Shown here one piece after another: positions 1,651 to 13,655 of a DNA stretch of 14,483 nucleotides (position 1 is the first letter of the stretch; the number at the start of each line of letters is the position of its first letter). This DNA is from Candidatus Desantisbacteria bacterium CG1_02_49_89. GTDB taxonomy: Bacteria > Desantisbacteria > UBA1551. The translations under genes and the position numbers were made by a program. The DNA lies in assembly GCA_001871075.1 (NCBI GenBank), contig MNUP01000042.1, positions 1 through 14,483 of the forward strand. Reading direction: 5' to 3'. The notes under the pieces were generated by a model. It made no database searches and was not told the origin of the DNA. It saw only the letters and a list, made by a program, of their open reading frames with translations.

Positions 1651-1676
1651 TTTTAATTCCCTTTGTTTTTCAATGG
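1637..1676. repeat. dispersed intergenic repeat, copy B
   Basis: The sequence gggacagcgaccattttta followed by attccctttgtttttcaatgg matches 1283-1323 with few differences, and both halves recur at 3142-3165 and 3222-3243. On the minus strand it supplies an AAAGGG and an ATG that open the orphan winged-helix frame, and it contains the last codons and stop of the upstream AlbA_2 gene. Confidence 0.7.
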
Positions 1677-3100
1677 AGAAAGGGAACGTTTCCTTTCTTT
1701 ACAGAATAATATTTTTGTTTTGGGCTTCTAAGTTTATCGGGTATTGTTGGATGGAGCAAACCTTGCTCAATCAGCGGTTTTAATATTTCTAAGCGAAAAT
1801 GCTCCCTGTCTTTTAAGTTTAAAAATTTCTGGATCTCTTCTCTGTCCCGTGGTATTTGGCAAAACTCAAGTATTCTTTTTGTGCGCTCATCTTGCGGGGT
1901 AGCTTGCGGGGTAGCTTGCGGGGTAGCTTGCGGGGTAAGCATCAAAACGAACTTAAAAACATCTTCTTCAAAAAGCTGGGGATCACGCCCGCAATATATC
2001 CTGCAATACTTAAAAAGATTCCTTACGCCTGATCCGAGCTCATCCGCTCTGCCAATTTCCCTGAATACACGCGCAATGGAAGGATTTTTGGGATAAGGTG
2101 AAAAATAAACGGGATCAATCAAGCCAAAACCGTGCGGTTTATTGCTGTTTTCGGTATATAGTTTTTCATGGTCAATAATAAATTTAGCAGGGAAAGCATT
2201 GATATATTCGCGGTGAATAAGAATATTGCTGATAACTTCGCGCAAAATATGGCCGCGCAGACTTACACGCTGATCATTTTCCATATAAAAAGGATCGCTT
2301 AGGTGCTTTTCCCCAAAACTGAGAAGGCGGTCATAACTGTCAATAAGATTAGTGCGGATATCATCGCGATCATCATAGCGGTCCCTGTTCTCACGCCTTA
2401 ATATGGCATCGGTTCTGAAGTGCGGCAAAACCGATAAAATTGTTTCATCCTTTCCGAAAAGCAGTATTGCGGCAAGCGTAAAACCGTTTTTCCCTGTCTG
2501 AAAATCTTTTTTATACAGCTGAGCGCTTTTTAGCATGCCAAGATCGTCCATTGATTCCCAGGCATGATTTTCACGATGAATTGCCGCCTGTTTCCTGACA
2601 CGCCCGATAATGTCCTGCCGCAGATCTGCAAGCTCCATATAAGGAAAAACCTGGTTTTCTGAATAGGTTGTCTGTTTTCTTAAGAAGAGTTCGGATACAA
2701 GATTATTGTTATCTGTAATGTCAAAGTCTCCGTCTTCATTGCGGTCATAAATCCTTCCGCTGCACCGGTGAACCTGAGAGCTTTCAGGAACATATATATA
2801 CAAAATCACTTTTCCGTCAATCGCAATTTCTTCTATCGACAGGTAAAATGCAGGGCTTATTTTTTGCGGATTGTTTACGGCAGTCACAAAATCCTTTTTT
2901 ATTTGTTCGATATATTTTGGGTCAATCCCCGTGATTACGCCGTTGTCATTAACGCCAAGTAGAAGTTCCCCGCCTGATCTGTTTAAAAATGCGCATACGG
3001 TATCATAAATATCTTTGGCAAGAGATGCCTTGCATTCTTTAAATTCAACAGAGATCTTTTCGCCTTGTTTAATAATTTGTTTGATTTTCAATACCTGCAT
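1670..3100 (-). CDS. AlbA_2 / RecG-like ATP-binding regulator, 476 aa
   Basis: This is a putative transcriptional regulator of the AlbA_2 (Schlafen AAA_4-like) plus HATPase_c_4 type. Residues 12-110 form the AlbA_2 domain (VEFKECKA, then AFLNRSGGELLLGVNDNG). Residues 285-365 form the GHKL-like domain (LREVISNILIHREY, then GRADELGSGVRNL). Residues 389-403 are a TPQATPQATPQATPQ linker encoded by four 12-base repeats. The final 70 residues are a predicted winged helix. The ATG at 3100 follows GGGGAG by 9 bases. The gene lies downstream of the E1 beta gene, across a 375-base repeat-filled gap, so cotranscription is doubtful. These proteins are thought to bind DNA or nucleic acid, but the target is unknown. 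The final residues (KKGNVPFLH) run into a dispersed repeat, so the original end may have been replaced. Confidence 0.9.
   Translation of the reverse strand: MQVLKIKQIIKQGEKISVEFKECKASLAKDIYDTVCAFLNRSGGELLLGVNDNGVITGIDPKYIEQIKKDFVTAVNNPQKISPAFYLSIEEIAIDGKVILYIYVPESSQVHRCSGRIYDRNEDGDFDITDNNNLVSELFLRKQTTYSENQVFPYMELADLRQDIIGRVRKQAAIHRENHAWESMDDLGMLKSAQLYKKDFQTGKNGFTLAAILLFGKDETILSVLPHFRTDAILRRENRDRYDDRDDIRTNLIDSYDRLLSFGEKHLSDPFYMENDQRVSLRGHILREVISNILIHREYINAFPAKFIIDHEKLYTENSNKPHGFGLIDPVYFSPYPKNPSIARVFREIGRADELGSGVRNLFKYCRIYCGRDPQLFEEDVFKFVLMLTPQATPQATPQATPQDERTKRILEFCQIPRDREEIQKFLNLKDREHFRLEILKPLIEQGLLHPTIPDKLRSPKQKYYSVKKGNVPFLH
1891..1938. repeat. four 12-bp tandem repeats encoding TPQA linker
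   Basis: The unit CTTGCGGGGTAG occurs three times (1891-1926), followed by CTTGCGGGGTAA (1927-1938). On the minus strand it codes for repeated T-P-Q-A in the linker of the AlbA_2 regulator. The unit is a multiple of three, so copy-number change keeps the frame. Confidence 0.95.
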
Positions 3101-11406: not shown

Positions 11407-11435
11407 TTGACTTTTCCTTGATTTTCTGATATACT
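11407..11435 (+). promoter_or_regulatory. sigma70-type promoter, first small-RNA unit
   Basis: TTGACT (11407-11412), a 17-base spacer and TATACT (11430-11435) differ from the consensus at one position in each box. The gene-free downstream sequence ends in an intrinsic terminator about 70 bases on. The region around the -35 box (aaatttgactttt) and after the -10 (attactaat) resembles the second promoter at 11542-11570. Confidence 0.75.
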
Positions 11436-11441
11436 ATTACT

Positions 11442-11511
11442 AATCCAAGTAATTGGAGTTGGATGACCCGAAGGGGTCAGCGTGAAGAAATCCCGAGAAA
11501 TCGGGTTTTTT
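11442..11511 (+). ncRNA. candidate small RNA 1 (about 70 nt, three hairpins)
   Basis: The predicted transcript starts about 7 bases after the -10 box. It can form three short perfect hairpins: TCCAA-GTAA-TTGGA (11444-11457), TGACCC-GAAG-GGGTCA (11464-11479) and the terminator stem CCCGA-GAAA-TCGGG (11492-11505). It carries no obvious reading frame, and I do not recognise it as a known RNA or riboswitch class. It is divergent to the PfkB gene and transcribed away from it. No gene follows that it could lead. Confidence 0.55.
11492..11511 (+). terminator. intrinsic terminator of small RNA 1
   Basis: Stem CCCGA / TCGGG with a GAAA loop is followed by six T residues (11506-11511). It ends the unit starting at the 11407-11435 promoter. 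Confidence 0.75.
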
Positions 11512-11541
11512 CATTTTTAAAAAACTTTGATAATATAAAAT

Positions 11542-11570
11542 TTGACTTTTAAATGAAATTATGGTATTCT
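11542..11570 (+). promoter_or_regulatory. sigma70-type promoter, second small-RNA unit
   Basis: TTGACT (11542-11547), a 17-base spacer and TATTCT (11565-11570). The -35 box and its flanks (aaatttgactttt) and the run after the -10 (attattag) repeat those of the promoter 135 bases upstream, suggesting a duplicated or shared control signal. Confidence 0.75.
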
Positions 11571-11576
11571 ATTATT

Positions 11577-11670
11577 AGAGTGGTAAGTCCGTTACAGGCG
11601 GTTCGTTGCGTTCCCATCCATCGGTTGGCAAAAGCAACGGCACGACAAGCCTGGAGGCACGCTCTTTTTT
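11577..11670 (+). ncRNA. candidate small RNA 2 (about 94 nt, nested stems)
   Basis: The 5' AGAG-TG (11577-11582) can pair with CA..CTCT (11658-11665), which is directly followed by Ts. Inside lie a small hairpin GTAA-gtccg-TTAC (11583-11595), then nested stems CAGGC/GCCTG (11595-11599 with 11649-11653) and CGTTGC/GCAACG (11604-11609 with 11634-11639) around a 24-base loop. The closing stem plus the T-run (11665-11670) can serve as terminator. I checked it by eye against SRP RNA, 6S, tmRNA, RNase P and common riboswitch signatures and saw no match. The overlapping plus-strand frame 11553-11738 looks like chance. Confidence 0.55.
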
Positions 11671-12022
11671 ATTTATTAGGCAGATATACGGTTTTATACT
11701 TTATATATTTACCTGCACCTCTCACCTTTAAAATTTGATCTGCCTCAGTCATAGTCTTTTCTTCTTACCAATTAGCAAAAAATGCTTACCGAAAATTTAC
11801 CGATTACCTGCCTTATAAATATATTTATCACTTCAGCCTTTCCCTAATTGCTCGGCAAAGCCTGCTTCTGCCACTGCTGCTGTCTCTTCTGCCGTTACTG
11901 CCATATTCTCTTCTTTTGCTACTACAACCTTCTCCTCTACTTTATTTCCAAATGGCTCGATTCTGACCCGATTATGGCTCGATTCTGACCCGATTAAAAC
12001 ATAATATATTGCAGAACTTGCA
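11671..12022. other. AT-rich gene-free stretch with direct and inverted repeats
   Basis: No convincing gene. An 8-base inverted pair AGGCAGAT / ATCTGCCT lies at 11678-11685 and 11738-11745. A 22-base unit is perfectly duplicated at 11952-11995. On the minus strand a frame is open from about 12063 to the stop at 11833-11835 and is listed separately as doubtful. Confidence 0.55.
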
Positions 12023-12063
12023 TTACCTTTTAATCTTCCACCATCCCCCGCTGGTTTTTCCCT
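11833..12063 (-). other. open frame without a good start, overlapping regulator end
   Basis: In the frame one base off the AlbA_2 regulator, about 76 codons are open across its last codons and into the gap. The later half reads VEEKVVVAKEENMAVTAEET and then AAVAEAGFAEQLGKG before a TGA at 11835-11833. It has a biased Ala/Glu composition. There is no ATG until the Met in KEENMAV and no matching Shine-Dalgarno. The 22-base direct repeat lies within it and shifts its frame. It may be a gene remnant or chance. Confidence 0.2.
11952..11995. repeat. 22-bp perfect direct duplication
   Basis: The unit ATGGCTCGATTCTGACCC plus GATT occurs at 11952-11973 and again at 11974-11995 without a mismatch. On the minus strand the word is GGGTCAGAATCGAGCCAT, similar in form (GGG-C-G...CAT) to the gggacagacaccat word of the dispersed repeat at 3142. 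Confidence 0.9.
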
Positions 12064-13405
12064 TTCTTCTTAAAATATTTTTCTTTCTCAGCCTTTTAAT
12101 ATATTCTTTTATTGTGTCTGAACCAATTTTTAATCTGTTGGCTATTTGATTTCGAGAAATCCTGGGATTTTTTATGATTTCCTCGAGTATTTGCTTTTCC
12201 AATCCTGATAATGTAACTTGGGGGGTAACTTGGGGGGTAACTTGGGGGGTAGTACTTATGCTCTCTTCTGCTTTAGCCATATTAAGATACTCTCGATTTT
12301 GTCCGAATGTTATATAAAAATGAGTTTCTGTAAAGTTTATTTTCGGTAACGGAGAGTGATCCTTTTTACAAATTTCCTTTATTCTTTGCATCCCTGAACC
12401 GAGTTTCTCGCCGAAATGAATCCTGGAAAATAAATCAGCAATCACCTGGTTTCTTCTGAAAACAGTTCTGCCAAGAATAAAATGTCTGGGCTTACGCCAA
12501 ATATTTTCTATGCTTATTTTGTCAGGAAAGAATTTCAGAATGTTATTATGCCCATGCTCGAAATAGTCCTTGTGCATAACTGAATTTATCACGGCTTCCC
12601 TTACTGCCTCAAACGGATATTCGTAAATTTCTTCTCTTTGAGGTTTACCAGTAAATCTGTAGGCTACTTTTGTATACATCCGGGTAAAATTCATCACACC
12701 TTCTACTATTTCAAACAGACTTCCTTTCACTTCTTTCCTATCTATTACGTCCGTTCCTTGTTTATCTTTAAAAAGAACTACGGTAAAAACTGACCAAGGT
12801 ATAAAACTTTGAGGATTTTTTGCAAAAAATAGAATACCGGAATTATTAAAATGCAGGTTTCCTCTCTGTCTTGTGCTGACATTCAGGCTCAATAGAATCC
12901 TTTCGCTTCCTGCGGTCTTAGATAAACCTCCAAGTTCAATAAATTCTGTCAATTTATTTTTGTCGTAATCTCCGGGATAATTGAACCCTGGCTCCATCAA
13001 TTCATCAAAACGTATTTTCCCTTCAGATTTAAACAAATCGACAATTTCATTTCTTGTCATTTTCTGGGAGTTTGGACCCAACCTTTTAAAAAATCCTTCG
13101 GAGCATTCATATGGTTTATCGCTTCCCTCCCGAACAGTAATAATAAGTATATTTTCGAATTTTTCAAAAGCAATTTGCACTTTAGGCCTGCAATTACTTG
13201 CAATATCCTGAATCTGAGATTTTAACCTGTTTGAGGCCGCAAAACCCTTTATTTTGCTATCATCGGTTATGCCAAGAAAAATCCTCCCACCTGAGGAATT
13301 CGCGAAAGATACCATCTCTTTGTCAATACCTGAAAGAGACTCTTTAAATTCTATCTTGTATCCTTCACCTTCTTCAAGTATCATTTTCAGTTCTTTTTCA
13401 TTCAT
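12023..13405 (-). CDS. AlbA_2 / RecG-like ATP-binding regulator, 460 aa
   Basis: This is a second, divergent AlbA_2-type regulator. The N-terminal AlbA_2 domain spans about 8-110 (YKIEFKESLSGIDKEMVSFA, then NSSGGRIFLGITDD). The GHKL-like ATP-binding region includes EAVREAVINSVMHKDYFEHG and EKLGSGMQRIKEICKK. A linker with three TPQ units (encoded at 12213-12248) joins a C-terminal winged helix (KNPRISRNQIANRLKIGSD, then GGWWKIKR). The ATG at 13405 follows AAAAGG by 9 bases. A TTG at 13423 would add six residues and put the Shine-Dalgarno inside the gene. Base composition is AT-rich compared with the sugar genes, and the gene is isolated by repeat-filled gaps on both sides, which suggests acquisition by transfer. 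Its target is unknown; the nearby small-RNA units and the glycosidase upstream are the closest candidates. Confidence 0.9.
   Translation of the reverse strand: MNEKELKMILEEGEGYKIEFKESLSGIDKEMVSFANSSGGRIFLGITDDSKIKGFAASNRLKSQIQDIASNCRPKVQIAFEKFENILIITVREGSDKPYECSEGFFKRLGPNSQKMTRNEIVDLFKSEGKIRFDELMEPGFNYPGDYDKNKLTEFIELGGLSKTAGSERILLSLNVSTRQRGNLHFNNSGILFFAKNPQSFIPWSVFTVVLFKDKQGTDVIDRKEVKGSLFEIVEGVMNFTRMYTKVAYRFTGKPQREEIYEYPFEAVREAVINSVMHKDYFEHGHNNILKFFPDKISIENIWRKPRHFILGRTVFRRNQVIADLFSRIHFGEKLGSGMQRIKEICKKDHSPLPKINFTETHFYITFGQNREYLNMAKAEESISTTPQVTPQVTPQVTLSGLEKQILEEIIKNPRISRNQIANRLKIGSDTIKEYIKRLRKKNILRRKGKTSGGWWKIKR
12213..12248. repeat. three 12-bp tandem repeats encoding TPQV linker
   Basis: The unit GTAACTTGGGGG is repeated three times without mismatch and is followed by a partial fourth. 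On the minus strand it encodes repeated T-P-Q-V in the linker before the winged helix. It has the same design as the repeat at 1891-1938 but a different unit. Confidence 0.95.
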
Positions 13406-13655
13406 ATTATTAAACCTTTTCAAAGCTAAAGCCCTGAGTTACATTCAGTGAACTCAGTGCCTTCAGTGCCCTCCCGCCCAGACTTCACGTCGGGGCGAGG
13501 TCTCGCCCGCTGAAAGACGGGCGGACAGTGGCAAAAATTAGTTTAAGTTCTCGTAAGTTCCCTGTAAAAAATATATTTCTCTGTGCTTCCGTTCTTCCGT
13601 GCCTCCGTGGTTATTCTTCAATTTTCAATTTACAATTTACAATTTGAAATTTGCA
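13406..13655. other. 250-bp repeat-filled gap
   Basis: No gene is seen. The gap holds a half REP-like palindrome (13424-13442), a CACTGAG-type word (13446-13470), GC hairpins including GGGCGAG-GT-CTCGCCC (13492-13507) and GCCCG...CGGGC (near 13506-13523), a 'cttccgtgcctccgtggtta' word (13593-13613) and tandem caatttac units (13618-13645). It lies between the glycosidase stop and the AlbA_2 start. Confidence 0.65.
13424..13442 (-). repeat. REP-like palindrome, one arm truncated
   Basis: On the minus strand it reads GTAACTCAGGGC-TTTA-GC, where the second arm stops short of the usual GCCCTGA. It lies immediately upstream of the AlbA_2 Shine-Dalgarno, so the insertion or decay may have reshaped the leader. 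Confidence 0.65.

Follow-up and report, generated by a model that had tools for sequence, protein, structure and literature searches.

An apparently orphaned DUF3800-V RNA beside a putative remnant of its DUF3800 gene in a Candidatus Desantisbacteria genome

What is the short, promoter-led segment in a 14,483-nucleotide stretch of DNA from Candidatus Desantisbacteria bacterium CG1_02_49_89 (the whole analysed stretch is referred to here as the window), and why does it stand there without a gene of its own? The original prediction described a compact structured RNA that fitted no nameable class. The first half of that description stands: the segment is a compact structured RNA that carries a promoter of its own and a terminator-like 3' end. 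The second half is wrong, since an Infernal-type scan (cmscan) against Rfam places the segment in RF02964, the DUF3800-V RNA family, far above the curated gathering cut-off of 37.4 bits. The locus has the following features.

11542 to 11570, plus strand: sigma-70-type promoter of the RNA, TTGACT-17-TATTCT with an extended -10 (TG), from a pattern scan
11573 to 11669, plus strand: DUF3800-V RNA (RF02964), complete, 59.3 bits by cmscan, model positions 1-96 of 96
11660 to 11670, plus strand: terminator-like 3' end, formed by the 3' arm of the closing helix and then a T-run, read from the sequence and conserved in the family alignment
11669 to 11704, minus strand: putative DUF3800 gene remnant, a stop codon and about the last 11-12 codons (KYIKYKTVYLPNK and the stop), from translation and comparison with locus L050

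The match to RF02964 (E = 2.6e-11) is the sole one over the whole window in the Rfam covariance scan. A covariance model of our own, built partly from the window sequence, gives the RNA 86.3 bits, and in a pairing tally all 24 testable pairs form and none of the 28 conserved columns is lost. By score and structure the window RNA is an intact member of RF02964. It resembles the family in its full-length sequence and structure, its own promoter, its T-run and its place where a convergent DUF3800 gene ends (here a putative remnant). It departs from the usual member in that the partner gene appears cut to its last dozen codons, and its phylum contributes two genomes to the comparison set. Adjacency to a DUF3800 gene gave the family its name but is no part of the model, and it does not define membership, because an intact gene is missing from 18 of the 63 copies. 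The family was reportedly described by Weinberg in 2017; the DUF3800-associated RNA families are catalogued, and a literature search found no report of their function. The RNA family is already known, and what is new here is limited to the orphan state of this copy and the architecture brought out by the comparison. Weak Rfam matches nearby (rimP leader, mt-tmRNA and others) fall below the cut-off and were dismissed, and a search of the window for tRNA and tmRNA found none.

The elements that had been proposed for the RNA are all present. The near-consensus promoter consists of TTGACT (11542-11547), a 17-nt spacer and TATTCT (11565-11570), the last preceded by TG. The ends of the RNA pair through GAGTG (11578-11582) and CGCTC (11660-11664), and within this closing helix lie the CAGGC/GCCTG stem (11595-11599 with 11649-11653) and the CGTTGC/GCAACG stem (11604-11609 with 11634-11639), which encloses exactly 24 nt (11610-11633). 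The family model adds a further small hairpin within this 24-nt loop, and a short pairing of CC (11589-11590) with GG (11656-11657) is also found. The T-run, predicted to follow the structure directly, occupies 11665-11670; a simple terminator scan omits this 3' end because the loop is long.

Folding energy and comparison across genomes, both named beforehand as checks on the structure, gave different answers. The minimum free energy of the window RNA is -29.2 kcal/mol, only mildly better than that of shuffled controls (z = -1.19), and 24 of 200 shuffles fold equally well. Minimum free energy alone is indecisive at these values, so the comparison with shuffled sequence is uninformative, and folding energy was dropped as proof of the structure. 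For the comparison across genomes, 84,980 species genomes were scanned by pattern, and searches followed of the genomes found and of 384 Omnitrophota and 340 Elusimicrobiota genomes. The resulting set holds 63 unique copies from many phyla, one of them on a mobilizable plasmid. In a MAFFT alignment of the first 39 copies, made without reference to structure, pairing holds in 92.7% of cells, and both sides are changed in 172 cells (49 +/- 7.5 in shuffled controls). Covariation scores 0.514, against a maximum of 0.12 when partners are slid, so that the predicted compensatory changes lie far above both controls. In a structure-fitted alignment of 66 sequences, 23 of 25 pairs have double changes. 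Most compensatory changes fall in two helices, and the internal loops TAAG, GTTCCC, GGC, AAGCC and GGCACGCT are nearly invariant across the family. This comparative evidence for the structure of the window RNA is decisive. A protein-coding reading of the region (open reading frame 11553-11738, 61 aa) was rejected because conservation follows the RNA pairs.

The promoter is conserved along with the structure. At least nine of the 12 consensus positions match at 92% of the 39 loci and in 18% of shuffles, and most members have a TTGAC[A/T]-17-TATAAT-like promoter at a fixed distance, with the -35 box at -29 to -36; the window promoter stands in this register. There is no second copy of the RNA in its own genome (2.48 Mb, 150 contigs), no copy in the single other genome compared from the same phylum, and no family member among six pattern matches in viral contigs.

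In most relatives the RNA has a neighbor. An intact convergent DUF3800 gene lies beside 44 of the 63 copies, on the opposite strand and pointing at the RNA, and encodes a protein of ~213 aa that starts M-[YWF]-LYLDESGDLGFD. Its stop codon is usually no more than ~15 nt from the T-run of the RNA, with a maximum of 23 nt apart from one locus at 88 nt. The architecture of the comparative set is uniform: the RNA promoter comes first, then the RNA with its T-run, and next to it the stop codon of the convergent DUF3800 gene. Acidic residues of the protein, including an LDESGD motif, are invariant (D7, E8, D11, D131 and D177 in A4), and published work assigns an RNase H fold to DUF3800 (PMC10910872, PMC12669027). 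A search of solved structures found none related to the partner protein, and a search of viral contigs and phages found no relatives of it. Within the 384 Omnitrophota and 340 Elusimicrobiota genomes, where searches did not select for joint presence, the RNA accompanies 28 of the 29 intact genes that belong to this subfamily; the sole RNA-less gene ends 84 nt from a contig end and has an altered C-terminus. The RNA and gene form a unit of 849 bp that is 95% identical between Nitrospira and Thermodesulfovibrionales in unrelated flanks, and a mobilizable plasmid of Ca. Tenderia carries the pair. These comparisons show the RNA and the DUF3800 gene to be co-inherited and to move as one cassette. 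In Elusimicrobiota, diverged RNA-DUF3800 units also occur in tandem arrays, four in L072 (G066:C62) and two in L074 (G067:C12).

Such movement raises the question of whether the unit is itself a small mobile element, with the RNA or DNA hairpin as its end and the window copy decayed or non-autonomous. The discrete unit in unrelated flanks of two lineages, the tandem arrays and the internal deletions that keep both gene ends (L173, L059, L187) are what such an element might leave behind, but the borders of the unit have neither terminal repeats nor target-site duplications, and a conserved RNA promoter and T-run would be superfluous for a DNA end. This explanation is very improbable.

The window appears to have lost the gene. 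The minus strand up to the stop codon at 11671-11669 reads GKYIKYKTVYLPNK, resembling the ending GNVKYDTIYLPEK of L050, and against the intact C-terminus of that homologue (VFKGNVKYDTIYLPEK and the stop) it keeps the same frame and the same stop position and distance from the RNA. The remnant scores 45, and 4000 dinucleotide shuffles gave a mean of 15.7 (sd 5.0) and a maximum of 34 (z ~5.9). Since the shuffles never reached this score, a gene was probably once present and was deleted to about twelve codons. No other DUF3800 homology was found in the window, including downstream of the RNA. As read from this comparison, the locus is an orphan RNA whose partner gene has apparently been deleted while the RNA, promoter and terminator remain. 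A short direct repeat, GGCTCGATTCTGACCCGATT, occurs in two copies at ~11955-11997, downstream of the RNA in a gene-poor region that would be the former gene's place.

The window is not alone in this. All 18 copies that lack an intact partner retain their pairing. Gene traces range from C-terminal pieces (L044, L115, L119, L174, L191) and internal deletions that leave both gene ends (L059, L173, L187) to an N-terminal scrap (L053), and seven loci have no trace (L037, L121, L171, L176, L179, L184, L192). Judging from these traces, the other copies are at different stages of what appears to be the same process of gene loss. The orphan RNA at L037 forms 24 of 25 pairs and keeps 28 of 28 conserved columns, and structure is maintained about equally well in orphan and partnered copies. 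The orphan status of the window RNA may simply be recent.

What the RNA does must account for both the convergent partner and the fixed structure. With moderate confidence, the DUF3800-V RNA is read here as a stand-alone structured partner that would bind the DUF3800 nuclease, most likely as an antidote or cofactor. The RNA would be transcribed from its own sigma-70-type promoter, fold as a single long, interrupted hairpin whose internal loops are conserved, and end at a helix-plus-U-run terminator. At a normal locus, a convergent gene for a predicted RNase H-fold nuclease ends a few bases from the RNA 3' end. The conserved loops would be putative contacts with the protein, and binding would most likely restrain or direct its predicted nuclease activity, in the manner of an RNA antidote or cofactor. 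A lone RNA would then be a leftover of recent gene loss, or it would still serve in trans against a homologous nuclease.

The main rival explanation is antisense control of the 3' end of the DUF3800 mRNA. The RNA and gene ends abut, with no gene terminator noted before the RNA; the transcripts may overlap, and plain antisense control would suit such an overlap too. The layout recalls the type I systems txpA/RatA and yonT/SR6, with a convergent RNA of ~100 nt, a sigma-A promoter with an extended -10 and ends that would overlap. The antisense RNA of yonT/SR6 in B. subtilis is 100 nt long and overlaps the toxin 3' end (PMC5848175); the RNA here is ~97 nt and its sigma-70-type promoter likewise has an extended -10. 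The toxins of those systems are small hydrophobic peptides, whereas the DUF3800 partner is a nuclease-like protein of ~213 aa with invariant acidic residues and the RNA has a covarying structure. Complementarity in cis is perfect and needs no conserved structure, yet the loops are fixed and the helices covary across phyla. Antisense control accounts for the convergent layout but not for the conserved loops, and is considered unlikely. Were it correct, the window RNA would be a relic, since its antisense target is gone.

Equally doubtful is the proposal that the DUF3800 nuclease becomes active, for example in defence, only with the RNA as its obligatory cofactor or guide-like scaffold, in which case the orphan would be functionless and would decay. 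DUF3800 proteins are accessory nucleases in some CRISPR loci (PMC10910872, PMC12669027), and the presence of a separate RNA for each gene in the tandem arrays suggests cognate pairing. The RNA nevertheless has no variable guide-like segment, PADLOC has no model for DUF3800 of this kind, and the orphans have kept their structure.

The preferred reading, a structured RNA partner of the nuclease, finds a parallel in the type III system ToxIN, which also couples a nuclease-type protein to a structured non-coding RNA, although the parallel is proposed for the way of working only. In type III systems the protein is an endoribonuclease toxin that the RNA inhibits. Their antitoxin RNAs form tandem repeats that precede the toxin within a single operon (PMC8860590). 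Across the DUF3800-V family, by contrast, a single RNA without tandem repeats lies on the opposite strand, convergent with the gene.

An antidote role agrees with the RNA outlasting its gene, but the asymmetry is explained by target size alone. The gene spans 640 nt and the RNA 97 nt, a difference of over six times, and of the 14 single losses one removed the RNA, where a fraction of 0.13 would be expected; the difference is not significant (P ~0.4, by our own arithmetic). RNA-less genes would be rare under an antidote, but because the larger gene target accounts for it, this rarity is not proof of toxin-antitoxin behavior, and that argument was rejected. It is also quite improbable, though less so than the mobile element, that solitary DUF3800-V RNAs are selected as free-standing antidotes against homologous DUF3800 nucleases on incoming DNA; if so, they would give the cell a kind of RNA-based immunity against addiction or defence cassettes. 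As the architecture is uniform and the RNA outlives its protein gene at the window locus, a role as antidote or cofactor is directly testable by co-expression.

The only DUF3800 gene of the genome lies on another contig (C98) beside a DUF3800-VII RNA (RF02967). The anatomy of that pair is the same as that of the DUF3800-V pairs, with a promoter, a short hairpin RNA and a U-run that overlaps the convergent DUF3800 stop codon. Unlike the window RNA, it belongs to another RNA family and another DUF3800 subfamily, and its partner gene is intact.

Several further features were observed. Just upstream of the window RNA, at 11407-11515 on the plus strand, is a second promoter-driven candidate small RNA with CAAGTAATTGGAGTTGGAT, a hairpin and a terminator. 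It has one relative with promoter, motif and hairpin, in an Omnitrophota genome (G315, L151/L160), directly upstream of a DUF3800-type RNA; other pattern matches to it were coding sequence. The window also encodes two Schlafen AlbA_2/HATPase_c_4 proteins on the minus strand (1670-3100 and 12023-13423) with short repeated linkers, TPQAT and TPQVT. A compact relative of DUF3800-V RNA lies where genes of a variant DUF3800 subfamily (MAYIFLDESGDLGFDF) have their 3' end: at L134/L163:1599-1673 on the plus strand, at the DUF3800 gene end in L097, L149 and L151, and at ~8503-8570 in L063. No Rfam family matches it at E <= 1 at the loci tested (L097, L134, L063), and it is probably an undescribed DUF3800-associated RNA. 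In a KSB1 genome, three tandem DUF3800-IX RNAs lie beside one DUF3800 gene (L104:1175-1417).
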